The notes under the pieces were generated by a model. The model ran no database searches. It saw only the letters and a list, made by a program, of their open reading frames with translations, and was not told the DNA's origin. From positions 1 through 64,000 of the forward strand of contig NZ_JATM01000001.1 of NCBI RefSeq assembly GCF_002003665.1: a stretch of DNA of 64,000 nucleotides, given 5' to 3'. Every line of letters begins with the position of its first letter. Position 1 is the first letter of the stretch. A program made the position numbers and the translations under genes. Source of the stretch: Bombella intestini (GTDB taxonomy: Bacteria; Pseudomonadota; Alphaproteobacteria; Acetobacterales; Acetobacteraceae). Positions 6,352 through 54,382 of this stretch are shown piece after piece.

Positions 6352-7536
6352 ATGGGGGGAGGTTCTGGGCGTCGGCGCATCAGTGTACTCGGCAGTACGG
6401 GTAGTATCGGGGTTTCGACAGTCGATCTTCTGAAGCAGCAGGCAGACTCCATCCAGGTGCGTGCCCTTGTGGGCGGGAAGAATGCCGCCCTTCTGGCCGA
6501 ACAGGCCAAGGCGCTGAAAGCTGAACTGGCTGTCCTGAATGATGAACAACATTATGACGAGCTGAAAGAGCGTCTTGCTGGCACCGATGTGAAGGTTGCG
6601 GCTGGTCGGCAGGCCGTTATCGAGGCTGGTGCGTTGGAAGCTGACTGGACGATGGCAGCCATTACCGGGGCGGCCGGTCTAGCGCCAACTTTGGAGGCCG
6701 TACGCAACGGTCATCAGGTGGCTCTGGCTAACAAGGAAGCCCTCGTTTGTGCTGGTAATGTCATGCTGGACGCTGTGCGCCATGCCGGTGCCGAGTTGTT
6801 GCCCGTGGATTCCGAGCATAATGCCATTGTGCAATCACTTGGCGGGGCGGATATGTCCCTTGTCGAGAAGATTGTGCTGACAGCTTCTGGCGGTCCGTTC
6901 CGTTGCTCCACCAAGGAGGAAATGGCCAAGGCGACCCCTGAGCAGGCTTTGAAGCATCCCACATGGTCCATGGGGGCTAAGATCACGATTGATTCCGCTT
7001 CCATGGCGAATAAGGGGCTGGAAGTGATCGAGGCTGCCCGCTTGTTCGATCTGCCAGAGCATCAGATTGACGTGCTGGTGCATCCGCAGTCCGTTGTGCA
7101 TGGCATGGTATGCTTCCGTGATGGTAGTTTCGTGGCTCAGATGGGAACGGCAGATATGCGGATTCCTATTGCCCACACACTGGCCTCTCCAACCCGGATG
7201 CAGACGAAGTGTGAGCGCCTGGATTTCGTAAAGCTGGGGCAGATGAATTTTGAAGCAGTAGACGAGGAACGCTTCATTCCGTTGCGTCTGGCTCGTCAGG
7301 TTCTGCGGGCTGGAGGTGTGGCTCCGACTGTCTTCTCCGCCGCCAATGAGATTGCCGTGGAAGCCTTCCTCGCCGGGAAAATCCGCTTCCTTGGTATTGG
7401 TGAGCTGATTGATGCCAGCCTTCAGGCCATGCCGGAAAACCCCGTGCCGACCTCGCTAGAGGACGTTTATCATTGGGATGAAATGGGCCGTGAACTAGCC
7501 CGGGCACAGATAAAGCGGATGGCGGCCCATGCATAG
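6352..7536 (+). CDS. dxr: 1-deoxy-D-xylulose 5-phosphate reductoisomerase
   Basis: Second step of the non-mevalonate isoprenoid pathway: DXP to 2-C-methyl-D-erythritol 4-phosphate with NADPH. The N-terminus has the nucleotide-binding ISVLGSTGSIGVSTVDLL; ALANKEALVCAG, VDSEHNAI, and ILTASGGPF (here VLTASGGPF) carry substrate and metal ligands; the C-terminal helical domain is intact. 394 residues. ATG 6352 is preferred over 6322 because GGGAGAGG lies six bases upstream and the ten extra residues look unrelated. rseP overlaps its end by 8 bp. Confidence 0.95.
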   Translation: MGGGSGRRRISVLGSTGSIGVSTVDLLKQQADSIQVRALVGGKNAALLAEQAKALKAELAVLNDEQHYDELKERLAGTDVKVAAGRQAVIEAGALEADWTMAAITGAAGLAPTLEAVRNGHQVALANKEALVCAGNVMLDAVRHAGAELLPVDSEHNAIVQSLGGADMSLVEKIVLTASGGPFRCSTKEEMAKATPEQALKHPTWSMGAKITIDSASMANKGLEVIEAARLFDLPEHQIDVLVHPQSVVHGMVCFRDGSFVAQMGTADMRIPIAHTLASPTRMQTKCERLDFVKLGQMNFEAVDEERFIPLRLARQVLRAGGVAPTVFSAANEIAVEAFLAGKIRFLGIGELIDASLQAMPENPVPTSLEDVYHWDEMGRELARAQIKRMAAHA

Positions 7537-8614
7537 TCTTCAGAGCATCATTGCCGGTCTGGTCGTTTTCGGGATCGTTGTCTTCATTCACGAGCTGGGC
7601 CATTATCTGGCCGCACGGTGGCGTGGCGTGCAGGTGACTGTTTTTTCCATCGGGTTCGGCCCCGCCCTGACATCATGGAAGGACCGGGTGGGAACACGCT
7701 GGCAGATTAGCCTTCTACCGCTTGGGGGCTATGTAAAGCTGCACGGTTTTGAGAACCGGCCCGATGCCCCACGGGAGGAAGGTGACGAGAATGCCTTCAA
7801 TCGGAAATCTGTTCTGTCACGGGCTATCGTGACGGTTGCGGGGCCGGTCTTCAATTTCCTTCTGACAATTCTTCTTTTTGTGATCCTGCTTTCCTGTTTT
7901 GGTAAGCCGGAGGCACGGCCCGATATCGGCACGCTGGCACCCGATGGTGCCGCCATGAAAGCCGGATTGCAGGTTGGTGATGAGATCCAGCGTCTGAACG
8001 GGCATCATATTCTTAGCATCGGCGATATTCAGGCACAGGTTGCTGCTCATCCCGGTGAGGTTATGAAGGTCGGCTTCTTGCGGAAGGGACAGACTGAAGA
8101 ACTGCCTGTCACGCTTGATCGCATCCAGCAAAACGGCCATGATGTAGGCCGTCTGGGTGTTGGGTTTGCGGTAAGTCATAGTGCGCCATTGCCGGTTTAT
8201 AAGGCGGTGCCGGCAGCCATCGGCCAGACATGGGATATGTGTGGCAATATGCTGGAAGGCATCTGGCAGATCATCAGTGGTCAGAGAAGCGCCCAGCAGC
8301 TTTCTGGGACCATTGGCATTATTCATATGTCTGGTCAGGCCGTGGATTATGGCATTGCCAGTGCGATAGGCTTTATCGCTCTGCTCTCTCTGAATCTTGG
8401 ACTGCTGAATCTTTTCCCTGTCCCTATGCTGGATGGTGGGCATTTGCTTTTTTATGCCTTTGAGGCCGTGTTGGGGCGTCCATTATCGGAGCGAACACAG
8501 GGGTACGCTCTGCAGTTTGGTCTGCTGCTTGTGGCCGCACTTTTCATTTTCTCAACAGTGAATGATCTCAGAGGGTTGGGAGTTTTTCACTGGTTGTTTG
8601 CTCATGGGGGTTGA
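7529..8614 (+). CDS. rseP: RIP metalloprotease RseP
   Basis: Site-2 zinc protease of the inner membrane that cleaves transmembrane substrates such as anti-sigma factors and remnant signal peptides. The zinc motif HELGH (His21, Glu22, His25) lies in the first membrane segment; a PDZ domain follows around residues 125-200 (GAAMKAGLQVGDEIQRLNG); the third zinc ligand lies in the late motif NLFPVPMLDGGHLLF. 361 residues, a usual length for a single-PDZ member. It overlaps dxr by 8 bp and precedes bamA, as in most proteobacteria. Confidence 0.94.
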   Translation: MHSLQSIIAGLVVFGIVVFIHELGHYLAARWRGVQVTVFSIGFGPALTSWKDRVGTRWQISLLPLGGYVKLHGFENRPDAPREEGDENAFNRKSVLSRAIVTVAGPVFNFLLTILLFVILLSCFGKPEARPDIGTLAPDGAAMKAGLQVGDEIQRLNGHHILSIGDIQAQVAAHPGEVMKVGFLRKGQTEELPVTLDRIQQNGHDVGRLGVGFAVSHSAPLPVYKAVPAAIGQTWDMCGNMLEGIWQIISGQRSAQQLSGTIGIIHMSGQAVDYGIASAIGFIALLSLNLGLLNLFPVPMLDGGHLLFYAFEAVLGRPLSERTQGYALQFGLLLVAALFIFSTVNDLRGLGVFHWLFAHGG

Positions 8615-8766
8615 TCTTTCCCCCTGCAATGATGGAAAAGACCATCTAGGGTAGAGTATATAACTGAAACAGGCAGCTCCCTTCATCACGATGGTGTAGG
8701 GGAGTCCGCTTGGTGCGGTTGTGCGTATGGGACTGTCTGGACGTTCTGCATCAGGGTGTTGGTGGG

Positions 8767-11334
8767 ATGGCCGTTCGTAGAAATTTGGGACGAGGAATAC
8801 CGGTTTTGTCAGGATTGCGTACGAAAAGGTTCCGGCCAATGGCCGTTCGACTGGCTCTGCTGGCTTCTGTCTGTACGGCACCGGCCTTGCTTTGTGCTGC
8901 AGAGGCAGCTCCGCAGCAGGGGCGTGGTACTCATCATGACCGGCGGTCAGCAGGTGACGGCTATGTGCCTGCAGGCAGCATGATCCAGGCTATCGAAGTC
9001 CACGGTAATACTCGGATCGAGACCAGCACTGTTCTCTCCTATATGGTCGTGCAGCCGGGTGATAGCTTTGACCGTGACGCTCTGAACCGCTCGCTGAAGA
9101 CGCTTTACGCTACCGGCCTGTTCCGGGATGTGACGCTGAAGCGTCAGGGCAGCACCCTTGTTGTAGACCTGACAGAAAACCCAGTGGTGAACCGTATCGT
9201 CTTTGAGGGAAACCACGCCCTCAAGGATAAGGACCTGATGAAAGAAATCAGCATGCGGACCCGTGCCGTATTTTCGGCGCAGACCGTGGCTGTAGATCGT
9301 CAGAAGATTCTGAATATGTATGCAGCCCGTGCCCGTTATGGGGCTACGGTGGTGCCGCAGGTCATTCGTCTTTCCCATAACCGTGTTGATGTGATCTTCA
9401 ACATCAATGAATCGCAACAGACACTGGTTCGTAAAATTGCCTTTGTTGGTAATGAAAGCTTCAGCGAAGCGGCTTTGTCCCATGTTGTATCGTCCAAGGA
9501 ACATGCCTGGTACCGCTTCTTTTCTTCCTCGGATGAATATAACCCAGAGCGCATCCGTTACGATGCCGAGTTGCTGAGACGTTTCTACCTGCATAGCGGT
9601 TTTGTGGACTTCCACATGATCGATGCGACTGGTGAGCTGTCTCCGGATCATAAGAGTTTCTACGTCACCTATACCCTCCATGAGGGGCCACGGTACCGCT
9701 TGGGCAAGATTGGTGTGCGCTCCAATGTTCATCATGTCACGGCGGACACGATGAAGAATCATATCGAGGTCTATAAGAACCAGTATTACGATGGCACTGC
9801 GGTGCAGGATAATGCAACGGATATGCAGGAGTGGCTTCAGGCTAACGGTCATCCCTTTGCGATGGTCCGGCCTGAAATTGCCCGTAATCCGGAAAAGAAG
9901 GTCGTTGACCTGCTGTTCGATATTGTCGAAGGGCCCCATGCCTATGTGGAGCGCATCGACATTAACGGTAATACGGTGACACGGGATCATGTGATCCGCC
10001 GTAACCTGCCCATGGTCGAAGGCGATGCTTATACGCCGTTTAACCGCAAATATTCCAAGCTGGCTCTTCAGGATATGGGGTATTTCAGCAGTACCAATGT
10101 GGAACAGTCCCAGGGGTCTGCACCAGATAAGGTCAACGTTAGTGCTAACGTTGTGGAGAAACCGACCGGTGAGTTCTCCCTGGGTGGTGGTTACTCGACG
10201 GATGCCGGTATCATGGGGAATGTCGGTCTGAAGCAGCATAACCTGCTGGGGACTGGGATTGATGCCGGGTTCTCCGGTACGGTCGCTTATTATGAAAAGC
10301 AGGCTGACCTGTCTGTGACGGACCCGTACTTCCTCGGGCGTAACTTTGTTGCTGGCTTCGACCTTTATACGATTCAGAACAATTACCAGACCTATCAGAG
10401 CTATAACGAGGGGCAGTACGGTGCGTCTGTTCGTCTTGGTTATGCCTATAACCGGTACCTGTCCCAGTCTTGGACCTATACCGTTGTAGACCGTCATGTC
10501 GGTAATGGTGTGCCTAATTCGCAGTATCCGGGTTGGGAAGATGATACGCCATCTGTCTATGTGCGTGATGCGGCTGGCTGGTCTCTCCTGTCACAGATCG
10601 GGACGAACATTACCTACGATCGCCGTGATAACCGCATGAATCCCCGGTCGGGCTATGTTCTCAGTGCTGGTGGTGATTTTGCTGGTCTCGGTGGTAATGA
10701 GAAATATTATCGTGTCAAAGCCAATGGTAGCTACTATCTGCCGTTGGATGATCTGACAGGCAGCCATAGCTGGGGTTTCCAGTTCAAAGGCGGTGTCGGC
10801 TATATGCACGACTGGAGTTCCAGCGGCGATCGCAACATCGTTGATAACTTCTATCTCGGTGGGCAGAACCTGCGAGGCTTCCTGCAGGGTGGTGTCGGAC
10901 CACGAAGCAGCCATTACAAGGGGGCTTGTCATAGTGGGGCTGCTAACACCCCATTGGGGCAGGCGCGTAATGGCTATTGCCCAGGTGCCGGACAGGAAGA
11001 CCTGTTGGGTGGTACCTTCATGTATACGGCGTCTATCCAGTTGAATTTCCCGCTTCCGATGGGTGATAGTCTGGGCATTTCAGGTCGTGGCTTTATTGAT
11101 GCCGGTAGTCTGTCTGGTAAGCGTGTGAAGGACCGGAACCATTATCGGAACTGGAACGACCCGTACTATACGCCGATTGGGGGTAGTACTATGACCCCCC
11201 GTGTTTCCGGTGGTCTTGGTATCTCCTGGAAGAGTCCCTTCGGCCTTGTCAATATCGATGGTGCTGTTCCGATTCATCGTGAGCATGGGGACAGGCTGTA
11301 CCCGGTCCGCTTCGGCTTTGGGCAGCAGTTCTAA
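8767..11334 (+). CDS. bamA: Outer membrane protein assembly factor BamA
   Basis: Central component of the BAM complex that folds beta-barrels into the outer membrane. The product has a signal peptide (hydrophobic LALLASVCTAPALLCAAEA), five POTRA repeats over roughly residues 70-430 (the first begins IQAIEVHGNTRIETSTVLSY) and a C-terminal barrel ending RFGFGQQF with the terminal Phe signature. VNIDGAVPI is the usual last-strand region. About 855 residues, longer than E. coli BamA (810). The start is uncertain: ATG 8767 and ATG 8839 both precede the signal peptide, and a TTG at 8710 gives a longer form; none has a clear ribosome-binding site. Confidence 0.93.
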   Translation: MAVRRNLGRGIPVLSGLRTKRFRPMAVRLALLASVCTAPALLCAAEAAPQQGRGTHHDRRSAGDGYVPAGSMIQAIEVHGNTRIETSTVLSYMVVQPGDSFDRDALNRSLKTLYATGLFRDVTLKRQGSTLVVDLTENPVVNRIVFEGNHALKDKDLMKEISMRTRAVFSAQTVAVDRQKILNMYAARARYGATVVPQVIRLSHNRVDVIFNINESQQTLVRKIAFVGNESFSEAALSHVVSSKEHAWYRFFSSSDEYNPERIRYDAELLRRFYLHSGFVDFHMIDATGELSPDHKSFYVTYTLHEGPRYRLGKIGVRSNVHHVTADTMKNHIEVYKNQYYDGTAVQDNATDMQEWLQANGHPFAMVRPEIARNPEKKVVDLLFDIVEGPHAYVERIDINGNTVTRDHVIRRNLPMVEGDAYTPFNRKYSKLALQDMGYFSSTNVEQSQGSAPDKVNVSANVVEKPTGEFSLGGGYSTDAGIMGNVGLKQHNLLGTGIDAGFSGTVAYYEKQADLSVTDPYFLGRNFVAGFDLYTIQNNYQTYQSYNEGQYGASVRLGYAYNRYLSQSWTYTVVDRHVGNGVPNSQYPGWEDDTPSVYVRDAAGWSLLSQIGTNITYDRRDNRMNPRSGYVLSAGGDFAGLGGNEKYYRVKANGSYYLPLDDLTGSHSWGFQFKGGVGYMHDWSSSGDRNIVDNFYLGGQNLRGFLQGGVGPRSSHYKGACHSGAANTPLGQARNGYCPGAGQEDLLGGTFMYTASIQLNFPLPMGDSLGISGRGFIDAGSLSGKRVKDRNHYRNWNDPYYTPIGGSTMTPRVSGGLGISWKSPFGLVNIDGAVPIHREHGDRLYPVRFGFGQQF

Positions 11335-50860: not shown

Positions 50861-51148
50861 TCAGTCGTGGCGTTTATCGTCCGGTTTTGTGGTCTCATCG
50901 TGAGGCTGTTGCGTTGTCTCGGTGGGGTGACTGTCTGTTTCCCCTGATGAGGGATAAAGATTGTCTCTGAATGGAATTGGCACGCCATCGGAGAAGTAGC
51001 CATTCTCTACTTTTGCCCCTTTGGGGAGCTTGTCCCGGGTAAAACGGTTTACAAGCCAGGGAAGCAGTTTCTCATGATAATAGACGACATAAAGGGCTAT
51101 CCAGAAGAACAGACAGAGAAGGGCTAGTATGAGGTTAAGGTGCTTCAT
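50861..51148 (-). CDS. Small single-span membrane protein, unknown function
   Basis: Not recognised. The 95-residue product has an N-terminal membrane segment (LNLILALLCLFFWIALYVVYY) followed by a basic stretch and a hydrophilic C-terminal tail rich in Asp, Glu, Thr and Pro. ATG 51148; a GGAT element lies about nine bases upstream. The 184-bp gap to pmtA shows no further feature I can support. Confidence 0.55.
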   Translation of the reverse strand: MKHLNLILALLCLFFWIALYVVYYHEKLLPWLVNRFTRDKLPKGAKVENGYFSDGVPIPFRDNLYPSSGETDSHPTETTQQPHDETTKPDDKRHD

Positions 51149-51332: not shown

Positions 51333-51989
51333 ATGGTGTCTTCCCTTAAACCCCGTTCTTCTCTTGATGCGGATAGCGTGCGTGACGCCTATCGCCGCTG
51401 GGCCCGTATGTATGACAAGGTTTTTGGTGGTGTATCTGCCTTCGGGCGTCGGCGGGCTGTGGAGGCTGTCAATGCTCTCCCGGGAACGCGTGTGCTAGAG
51501 GTCGGGGTCGGGACAGGGTTGGCATTACCCTCCTATAAGCCAGAAAAACACATTACGGGAATCGACCTTTCGGAAGACATGCTCGCTCTCGCACGGGAGC
51601 GAGTGAAGCGGGAAGGTTTGCGTAATGTAGATGAACTTATGGTGATGGACGCCGAGAATACCAGCTTTGCCGATAACAGTTTCGATATTGCTGTCGGTAT
51701 GTTTGTGGCCTCTGTTGTGCCTCATCCAGACCTGCTGCTGGCGGAGTTGAAACGGGTCGTCAAACCCGGCGGACACATCCTTTTCGTCAATCATTTCCTT
51801 GCCCGTGGTGGTGTCCGCCTGAAGGTGGAGAAGATCATGGCTCGTGCCTCTCGTGCATTGGGCTGGCACCCTGACTTTGCCATTGAATCTCTCCTTCCAC
51901 CGGAAGATATGGCCCGTGCGACCATTACCCCCGTACCACCTGCCGGACTTTTCACCCTCGTGACATTGCCTCCTGAGGAGACTAAGTAA
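51333..51989 (+). CDS. pmtA: Phosphatidylethanolamine N-methyltransferase, PmtA type
   Basis: SAM-dependent methyltransferase expected to methylate phosphatidylethanolamine toward phosphatidylcholine at the inner membrane. The protein shows the soluble Rhodobacter/Acetobacter type: YRRWARMYDKVFGGVSAFGRR, SAM-binding VLEVGVGTGLALP, GIDLSEDMLALAR, and FVNHFLARGG. 218 residues. Acetic acid bacteria are known to make phosphatidylcholine, which fits. A ubiquinone/menaquinone methyltransferase (UbiE-like) is the main alternative. Confidence 0.82.
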   Translation: MVSSLKPRSSLDADSVRDAYRRWARMYDKVFGGVSAFGRRRAVEAVNALPGTRVLEVGVGTGLALPSYKPEKHITGIDLSEDMLALARERVKREGLRNVDELMVMDAENTSFADNSFDIAVGMFVASVVPHPDLLLAELKRVVKPGGHILFVNHFLARGGVRLKVEKIMARASRALGWHPDFAIESLLPPEDMARATITPVPPAGLFTLVTLPPEETK

Positions 51990-52026: not shown

Positions 52027-53298
52027 ATGAATGTAACAGGCTGGCAGAATAGAGTGACTTCAGGGCCGTTATTCCAGAGAGCATCTTCATTCCATCGTGG
52101 CGGGAGTGGCGGGGCATTTTTCCTGCTGGCACTCTTTGCCGGTATGTTAGGCGGCGTTATGGGGTTGCCTTTCTTACATGTGCATCCTTCGGCGGGTGTT
52201 GTTGTCTCCCATGCCGTGTTGATGACATTTTATGTTGTCGCTCCTGTTTTTCTTGGTGGTATGGCCCAGTGGTTTTTGCCTGACCTGCTGAAGGGTGAGG
52301 GTATGGCCCTGCCTTCTGCTACTCGCATCGGTTTCGGTGTGCTGGCAGTAGGGGCGTTTCTGCTGCCTGTTATGCCGTATGGAGGGCTGGCACTGTGGAG
52401 TATCGGCGTGTTGGCTCTGGCCTTCAATGTGGTGGCCACCGTGCTGGAAATGCGCTCCATTCCTTTCCGTAGCTTCCCGCCGCTGGTTTGGGCCTTTCTG
52501 GCTAATGCCCTTTCCATGCTCGTGATTGCTCCTGTTCTGCTGGCTTTCCTGCTACGGGGCGGCTTAGCCGGTGCTGGGCCTGATGCTCTGCTGAGTGTCC
52601 TGCGTGGCACTGTGGAAATGACCCTGTTAAGCGTGCCTTCACTCGGTATCATCATAGCTGCTCTCTTGCCGAAACAGACGGAGCAGGGCTGGGTGCCCCG
52701 GTGCGCTCCTTATGCTTTTGGTATCATGGGATTGGTGCCTGTCTTGTTCTGGGCAGATCATTTGTTCGGTGAACTCCCATCTTCTGCTTACAAGGCAAGC
52801 CTAACGGTAGGTCTGGTTCTTCCTTGTCTGGCTCTGTTAGTGGCGTTTGCCCGAGACCTCTGGCGTGTAGCGTTGCCTTCCGGTCCTGCTGCGGGCTGGG
52901 CCTCTGGTGGGTTGGTTCTACTGCTTGCCGGCTGGGCAGCCATGCTGACGGAGCCGCTTTGGGCAGGGGGGAGTGTACAGCCCGGTGCTTTCATGTTGGG
53001 TGCAGCAGGGCATCAGTTGGTCATGTTCGGTAGTTTGTTGGCCTTGAGTGCCGCATTCTATGGCTGGTGCGGGGTGAGGCTGGCTTCTCATGGACGGTTT
53101 TTTGCCGTCTTTGGCATGGCTCATGCGCTGGTCACGTTTGCCGGCGCACTTTGCTCGGTCCTGCCGCAGTTGGTTTTGCCCGCCACCCTGTTGATGGGGG
53201 GGAGTCTCCTCATGTTTGCTTTGCCCGCCGGGATGGTGTGGTATGGTATGCTCGTTGAGCGGGCCCAAGAGGTAACGGGACTTCTTCGTAAACAGTAA
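52027..53298 (+). CDS. Cytochrome oxidase subunit I-like membrane protein lacking copper-site residues
   Basis: 423-residue protein with about twelve membrane segments that aligns by eye along its length with heme-copper oxidase subunit I. VSHAVLMTFYVVAPVFLGGMAQWFLP corresponds to the AHGLIM helix II region, and His62 keeps the position of the first heme ligand. The GHPEVY motif reads GTVEMT (residues 194-199), so the first copper-site His and the cross-linked Tyr are absent; the next His pair reads WADH (Asp244, His245); and of HFHYV only one His (329, in GHQLVM) remains. Electron transfer to oxygen is therefore doubtful. ctaB follows by 11 bp; no subunit II or III gene is beside it. NnrS-like proteins are an alternative. 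Confidence 0.65.
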   Translation: MNVTGWQNRVTSGPLFQRASSFHRGGSGGAFFLLALFAGMLGGVMGLPFLHVHPSAGVVVSHAVLMTFYVVAPVFLGGMAQWFLPDLLKGEGMALPSATRIGFGVLAVGAFLLPVMPYGGLALWSIGVLALAFNVVATVLEMRSIPFRSFPPLVWAFLANALSMLVIAPVLLAFLLRGGLAGAGPDALLSVLRGTVEMTLLSVPSLGIIIAALLPKQTEQGWVPRCAPYAFGIMGLVPVLFWADHLFGELPSSAYKASLTVGLVLPCLALLVAFARDLWRVALPSGPAAGWASGGLVLLLAGWAAMLTEPLWAGGSVQPGAFMLGAAGHQLVMFGSLLALSAAFYGWCGVRLASHGRFFAVFGMAHALVTFAGALCSVLPQLVLPATLLMGGSLLMFALPAGMVWYGMLVERAQEVTGLLRKQ

Positions 53299-53309: not shown

Positions 53310-54275
53310 ATGCAGGCATCATCTAGCCTTTTGGCATCTCCACTGGCCCGTTTTCTGGGAGTGCTGCGTGTGGAGGGGCATGATGGTGATGCTGCTTTGC
53401 AGGATTGGGTAGCTTTGCTCAAGCCACGGGTGATCTCGCTCGTGGTCTTCACTGGGCTGGCTGGTATGGCCGTAGCCCCGAAATGGCCGTCCGTACCGGT
53501 TGGATTAGTCATTATCGCTTGTATCTGTATCGGTGCTGGTGCCGCTGGTGCCATCAATATGTGGTATGATCGCGATATTGATGCGATTATGAAGCGTACT
53601 CGTGTCCGCCCCGTGCCCGGTGGGCGGGTGGAGCCAACCAGTGCGCTGGTTTATGCAGTTGTGTTGTCCGTAGCCTCGGTCGTGCTGCTCTGGCTGGCGA
53701 CTAATCTGTTAGCAGCGGGTATTCTGGCCTTTTCCATCTTCTTTTATGGTGTGATCTACACCATGTGGCTCAAGCGCAGTACGCCGCAGAATATCGTGAT
53801 TGGCGGTGCCGCCGGGGCCTTTCCTCCCATGATCGGCTGGGCCGCTACGATGGGGTCGCTGGATGTGTTGCCGGTTGTGATGTTCGCCATCGTCTTTTTA
53901 TGGACGCCTCCGCATTTCTGGTCGCTCTCGCTCTATGCCTGTAAGGATTATGAGAGCGCAGGTATTCCTATGCTGCCAGTCGTGAAGGGGGCTCGGCATA
54001 CACGTTGGCAGATCGTTATCTATACCTTTATTCTCGGGGCAGTGTCCCTTGTGCCTAGTGTGGTTGGGCAATGCGGTTGGTTTTACACGGTATGCGCTAG
54101 CCTGCTGGACCTCGGCTTTATTTATTATGGTTTGCGGGTTCTGTTCGATAAGCAGGATGATAAGGGGAATAGCCTGACGAAAGATAAGCCAGCTCGGTAT
54201 GCATTTCGCTATTCGCTTGCTTATTTGTTTTTTCTTTTCTGTGGCCTTCTGATTGATCGGGTTCTTCTAGCATGA
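53310..54275 (+). CDS. ctaB: Protoheme IX farnesyltransferase (heme O synthase)
   Basis: UbiA-superfamily prenyltransferase that converts heme B to heme O, cofactor of bo-type ubiquinol oxidases, and precursor of heme A. Motifs: KPRVISLVVFTGLAG, the Asp-rich NMWYDRDIDAIMKRT, YTMWLKRSTPQNIVIGG and IVFLWTPPHFWSLSLY. 321 residues with about nine membrane segments. It lies between the degenerate oxidase-like gene and a 36-residue membrane protein gene overlapping it by 4 bp. Confidence 0.95.
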   Translation: MQASSSLLASPLARFLGVLRVEGHDGDAALQDWVALLKPRVISLVVFTGLAGMAVAPKWPSVPVGLVIIACICIGAGAAGAINMWYDRDIDAIMKRTRVRPVPGGRVEPTSALVYAVVLSVASVVLLWLATNLLAAGILAFSIFFYGVIYTMWLKRSTPQNIVIGGAAGAFPPMIGWAATMGSLDVLPVVMFAIVFLWTPPHFWSLSLYACKDYESAGIPMLPVVKGARHTRWQIVIYTFILGAVSLVPSVVGQCGWFYTVCASLLDLGFIYYGLRVLFDKQDDKGNSLTKDKPARYAFRYSLAYLFFLFCGLLIDRVLLA

Positions 54276-54382
54276 GCGATCACAACATTCCTTCCCGCCG
54301 TCAGGGACGTCTCTTTGGTATTGTTCTAGGGCTTTCCTTCTTTACGCTGGCTCTGTTCGTAGTGGCGTTGTATCGGCTGTAA
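54272..54382 (+). CDS. Small membrane protein downstream of ctaB
   Basis: A 36-residue reading frame beginning with ATG 54272, which overlaps the ctaB stop in an ATGA junction. It reads MSDHNIPSRRQGRLFGIVLG, then a hydrophobic segment to VALYRL. The basic N-terminus, single membrane span and place after ctaB resemble the very small proteins found beside ctaB/ctaG in alphaproteobacteria (CoxF-like), but the family cannot be fixed from so short a sequence. Confidence 0.6.
   Translation: MSDHNIPSRRQGRLFGIVLGLSFFTLALFVVALYRL

Follow-up and report, generated by a model that had tools for sequence, protein, structure and literature searches.

The gene that precedes ctaB in the window, by which we mean the whole 64,000-nucleotide stretch of Bombella intestini DNA analyzed here, encodes a descendant of cytochrome c oxidase subunit I (CtaD/COX1); its sequence, its fold, and the order of the neighboring genes all show this descent. 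Such a protein persists in bee-associated acetic acid bacteria and in many of their relatives. The protein, termed pseudo-CtaD, is under purifying selection and has lost the a3/CuB center, and it retains both histidines at the positions of the low-spin heme ligands; it is probably a working membrane protein with a single heme, encoded next to an enzyme of heme synthesis, rather than a dead gene. An earlier note on this DNA had read it as a relative of heme-copper oxidase subunit I without the copper center, kept by selection beside ctaB, and perhaps acting as a heme-binding or assembly protein or as an NO- or heme-sensing relative rather than an oxidase. The kinship, the selection, and the non-oxidase character all stood up; the NO-sensing relation found no support. 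"Heme-binding or assembly protein" is still the kind of explanation that fits best, and the pattern of conservation strengthens it. The present analysis goes beyond that note in recognizing the remaining histidines as the low-spin heme pair and the gene as an in-place remnant of a cytochrome c oxidase (COX) operon across acetic acid bacteria.

Kinship with cytochrome c oxidase subunit I

The intact 423-residue frame described earlier was borne out, with 423 unbroken codons from ATG 52027; since several congeners have no ATG at the equivalent position and only a GTG matching window position 52054, that GTG may be the true start (414 amino acids). The gene stands in a tight row of methyltransferase, pseudo-ctaD, ctaB, and one-helix ORF (Table 1), and ctaB begins 12 bases past its end. 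The ctaB product clears both curated cut-offs for heme O synthase (246 and 210.3 bits) with scores of 335.9 and 329.7, respectively, which confirms the neighbor named in the earlier note. The top NCBIfam match of the methyltransferase is the phospholipid N-methyltransferase PmtA (160 bits, below the cut-off of 390). Adjoining the methyltransferase gene on the minus strand is a 95-codon ORF (50861-51148) whose translation has a single hydrophobic segment, at the N-terminus, and a polar tail; it matches nothing in Pfam or NCBIfam. At ten loci of Bombella, Parasaccharibacter apium, and other Acetobacteraceae, pseudo-CtaD is found at 58-97% identity.

Table 1. Features of the pseudo-CtaD locus and selected codons within the gene (window positions)
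Feature	Position	Strand	Basis
SAM methyltransferase gene, conserved upstream neighbor	51333..51989	+	NCBIfam PmtA match
pseudo-CtaD (COX1-derived membrane protein without a3/CuB center)	52027..53298	+	ORF, homologues, alignment, fold
H62 codon, helix II His, low-spin heme axial ligand position	52210..52212	+	63/63 homologues
GTVEMT codons where GHPEVY stood (CuB His and cross-linked Tyr lost)	52606..52623	+	HMMER, MAFFT
WADH codons where WAHH stood	52750..52761	+	Trp 63/63; first His position D/H/K/R/Q
H329 codon, helix X His, second low-spin axial ligand position	53011..53013	+	62/62 homologues
H366 codon, helix XI His, conserved in COX1 too	53122..53124	+	58/62 homologues, Gln in 4
ctaB, heme O synthase	53310..54275	+	curated profile scores
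36-codon one-helix ORF (RRQGR...ALYRL), overlaps ctaB stop (ATGA)	54272..54382	+	like ORFs 3' of ctaB in relatives

Searched alone against Pfam and NCBIfam, the window protein gave zero matches at E ≤ 1; phmmer with the same protein recovered COX1 chains at 3e-7. Of 26 diverse family members, 22 matched the Pfam COX1 family (PF00115) at E ≤ 0.01; the window protein did not. A profile built from these 26 members found a solved COX1 chain at E 1e-69 over most of the profile length and matched bo3 subunit I less closely (2e-29). An AlphaFold2 model computed from 11 sequences (pLDDT 70.5, pTM 0.75) aligned with COX1 chains over 356 residues at 3.5 Å with a VIA Z of 25.0, and Foldseek matched it to COX1 at E 3e-6. 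Both the sequence relation and the COX1 fold thus place the protein, by descent, in the heme-copper oxidase subunit I superfamily. Assignment to an unrelated transporter family, which the earlier note had named as an outcome that would overturn its reading, is rejected on the COX1 matches from phmmer, profile, and fold; the first transporter appears at Foldseek rank 37, with a TM of 0.15.

Ligand residues, heme pockets, and selection

To count ligands, 63 Acetobacteraceae homologues, one of which ends before helix X at a contig end, were aligned with 12 genuine COX1 sequences; we take the places of H62 and H329 to be those of the two low-spin heme axial ligands of COX1, and the other ligand places to belong to the a3/CuB center. 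Two axial histidines at the low-spin positions are present throughout (63 of 63 and 62 of 62), so the two residues that the earlier note saw remaining in one protein are universal in these homologues. H329 aligns with the second His of HFHY, that is, with the low-spin ligand, and helix X is gap-free from H329 through the FYxW motif, which rules out H329 as the a3 ligand. Nor do the ligands occur at shifted positions, a second outcome held to be fatal in advance, helix X being gap-free and H62 and H329 the only invariant histidines. Among the 26 diverse members (19 to 68% identity to the window protein), eight columns are invariant (H62, W155, G207, W242, W291, H329, Y345, and W347), and no other His is among them. 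Of 15 histidines invariant in genuine COX1, only the low-spin pair and the helix XI His are kept in at least 90% of the homologues.

The oxygen-reducing site has fared differently from this pair. HMMER and MAFFT both reproduce the earlier by-eye placement of GTVEMT under GHPEVY and of WADH under WAHH; the window protein has G, D, and H in the three CuB places, and its a3 ligand position is A, in agreement with the claim that two copper-site histidines and the cross-linked Tyr are missing. Across the homologues, the a3 ligand position, which precedes H329 by two residues, holds His in 2 of 62 sequences, and the CuB positions are His in 0, 24, and 10 of 63, respectively. The cross-linked Tyr and the K-channel Lys are each found in 0/63, and every one of the 63 has a deletion that removes the Arg pair from the helix XI-XII loop. 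Pseudo-CtaD therefore lacks the set of CuB/a3 histidines, Tyr, and K-channel Lys of a working cytochrome c oxidase. In the column of the second CuB His (window 52756-52758), the 63 homologues show D, H, K, R, or Q without exception; the position stays polar though it is mostly no copper ligand.

For the residues surrounding the ligands, we compared pockets from which the ligands themselves were excluded, with residue lists for the a3/CuB and low-spin sites based on the bovine structure. In the a3/CuB pocket the COX1 residue is kept in 13% of cells, compared with 36% for the background (P 0.0001; random sets fall this low about 1 time in 10,000). The corresponding value for the low-spin pocket is 44% against the same 36%, which is not significant (P 0.14; P 0.06 when similar residues are counted). 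In addition, 48 of 62 homologues carry Trp where genuine COX1 has a glycine in the a3 pocket (W303 in the window protein, 52933-52935), as though the vacated cavity had been filled. Because the a3 pocket lies below background, the low-spin pocket does not, and a Gly has given way to Trp, the oxygen site appears to have been emptied and in part filled, and the low-spin site not.

Conservation and dN/dS were also the check proposed for selection, and they upheld it: between the window and six Bombella relatives, dN/dS is 0.077-0.116 for pseudo-CtaD and 0.012-0.023 for ctaB. Purifying selection acts on pseudo-CtaD, whose amino acid sequence changes roughly five times as fast as that of CtaB. Among the short-frame matches listed from 397 genomes, a stop occurs in a single row (G035), where the match overruns a 446-codon frame.

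The locus and the genomes that carry it

The family survey covered these 397 genomes with a few candidates scored in each, and overlooked at least one pseudo-CtaD (G089) and a genuine COX1 (G020); among the matches listed, at least about 90 are short-frame by hand count. Among the matches listed from a class-wide search of 289 genomes, those with a short frame beyond the family came from G440 (477 codons) and G466 (506 codons, at a contig edge). A methyltransferase relative lies upstream at 63 of 63 pseudo-CtaD loci, and ctaB follows at all 62 uncut loci, the 63rd ending at a contig edge. Genuine operons in the family read methyltransferase, a gap of ~1 kb, COX1, ctaB, and small ORF, the gap being about as long as ctaC. 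In eight regions with genuine COX1 and ctaB, the methyltransferase stands at ~1 kb distance in five and the small ORF is present in all eight. A short hydrophobic ORF near the ctaB stop likewise occurs at each of the 22 pseudo-CtaD loci read for it; in G089, the small-ORF profile finds nothing adjoining ctaB.

This shared methyltransferase/ctaB/small-ORF order marks the pseudo-CtaD locus as a reduced form of the ancestral COX operon, still in its original place. The one-helix ORF may be a retained small protein of that operon; we loosely call it CoxF, and a literature search returned no paper joining CoxF, CtaG, and cytochrome c oxidase. A quick tree separated 27 pseudo-CtaD rows from 21 genuine COX1 sequences by a branch with SH-aLRT 100, with long branches; together with the shared gene order it suggests, with caution, a single origin of pseudo-CtaD.

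The Bombella intestini genome contains one Pfam COX1 match, which is CyoB in a cyoABCD cluster. That cluster holds no ctaB, the window copy is the sole ctaB of the genome, and heme A synthase has no match there. In twelve other pseudo-CtaD genomes, heme A synthase is absent from seven and present in five, so heme A is no general requirement. Two small Acetobacteraceae genomes (G063 and G099) have no ctaB match, no pseudo-CtaD among the matches listed, and no CyoB-length match; each has one COX1-family match, whose open frame (785 codons in one genome, 833 in the other) scores far under CyoB and, from its length, perhaps encodes an NO reductase, and these bacteria perhaps respire with bd oxidase only. 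In another genome, G011 (L165, about 6640-8986, minus strand), ctaB comes immediately after the methyltransferase gene, the locus contains neither a COX1-like gene nor the small ORF, and two CyoB-type genes are present, indicating that pseudo-CtaD is not needed everywhere.

Candidate roles and related systems

Our best overall reading, which we hold as nearly an even call, is that pseudo-CtaD, an in-place COX1 descendant, is a bis-His heme b/o membrane protein for heme O handling with CtaB. The operon of an aa3-type cytochrome c oxidase was reduced in acetic acid bacteria to the row of methyltransferase, ctaD, ctaB, and one-helix ORF, with ctaD remodeled by loss of the a3/CuB center, Tyr, K-channel Lys, and arginine-pair loop, and with both low-spin axial histidines held by purifying selection. 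Given the kept pair, the product is most likely a membrane cytochrome whose single heme is six-coordinate; this heme would be of type b or o because no heme A synthase was detected in the genome. We consider it probable that such a heme is bound between H62 and H329, as judged from the residues retained. The arginine pair of COX1 touches the heme propionates, and its loss from 63 of 63 homologues, together with a low-spin pocket not above background, speaks against a bound heme. From operon position and joint loss, the protein may serve to keep heme or pass it along within the CtaB pathway, by which heme O would reach the bo3-type CyoB, the sole genuine heme-copper oxidase detected in the genome; heme handling of this kind beside CtaB is plausible but somewhat short of probable. 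The state of G011, the faster change of pseudo-CtaD relative to CtaB, and the report attributed to Matsutani 2014 that ctaB of A. pasteurianus functions in E. coli count against this reading. A further step, which we regard as doubtful, would make the former oxidase core subunit a dedicated one-heme carrier, with pseudo-CtaD, CtaB, and the one-helix protein forming a heme O supply module that loads bo3 and uses the old low-spin site for transfer. If the protein does bind heme, it would amount to an oxidase cut in two, with the electron-entry heme site retained and the oxygen-reducing site erased, and would offer a native one-heme COX1 scaffold for low-spin spectroscopy free of the a3 signal.

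Several other accounts of the same gene were weighed. It could be a relic on its way out, a ctaD inactivated by accumulated mutations and persisting only by its position before ctaB; Matsutani 2014 reportedly took the view that ctaD lost function in this way. The strong divergence and the loss in G011 fit decay, but intact frames, a dN/dS of about 0.1, and two histidines never lost at divergence down to 19-40% identity do not, so that this already disfavored reading is very improbable. A sensor of NO or heme of the NnrS or NorB kind is scarcely credible: a heme pocket could sense in principle, but NnrS (Pfam, E ≤ 0.01) matched 0 of the 26 family members, a missing match alone compatible with a remote tie, against 22 for COX1, which fills the family profile over nearly the full protein length, and a bis-His heme would leave no free position for gas binding. 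NorB is excluded by its FeB histidines, in whose places at the CuB positions the window protein has G, D, and then H, unconserved in the family.

The remaining two readings keep the protein at work in other ways. The low-spin heme of COX1 is its electron-entry heme, and pseudo-CtaD might accordingly take up electrons, either those of quinol or those of the bc1/cytochrome c branch, where cytochrome c oxidase is missing, and deliver them to some acceptor; PMC10715153 describes bc1 without COX as a known puzzle of acetic acid bacteria. We find this improbable, since the cytochrome c docking subunit is missing from the locus, where the methyltransferase gene directly precedes pseudo-ctaD, the acceptor site is gone, and the partner genes indicate heme O synthesis. 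The main rival to our reading, though itself rather unlikely, is a heme-free structural partner that steadies CtaB in the membrane and has two histidines as structural leftovers. The strict ctaB linkage and the loss of the propionate arginine pair would suit such a role, which PMC10715153 gives as likely, but it leaves unexplained why the low-spin pair, out of 15 COX1-invariant histidines, is never lost, and why the a3 pocket has decayed beyond background without decay of the low-spin pocket; moreover, G011 has ctaB without pseudo-CtaD.

The gene itself is not new, being already in print. By the published descriptions, it corresponds to the Acetobacter "ctaD" APT_01775 of PMC5158111 and to the "deranged COX1-like protein" of PMC10715153, which cites Matsutani 2014; these are alike in being COX1-like, beside ctaB, and in acetic acid bacteria without COX, and the match is one of description. 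The naming there is as a COX subunit or as a protein lacking all conserved metal-binding residues. In every uncut homologue read here, by contrast, the low-spin heme pair is kept, which corrects the published claim that all metal ligands are lost. What is new relative to these texts, as far as our searches show, is that the low-spin ligands are kept throughout and that the other pocket has eroded selectively, along with the dN/dS estimate and the conservation of the small ORF.

Compared with A-type CtaD/COX1, pseudo-CtaD shares the fold, the helix order, the low-spin ligand histidines, the W of WAHH, the helix XI His, and the position 5' of ctaB and a small ORF. It differs in being ~100 residues shorter, with the arginine-pair loop deleted, and in lacking the a3 ligand (60 of 62 homologues), a complete CuB site, the Tyr, and the K-channel Lys. 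With CyoB, subunit I of the bo3 oxidase, it shares the superfamily and the Bombella intestini genome, where CyoB carries GHPEVY and an HFH motif; CyoB differs in being a genuine oxidase.
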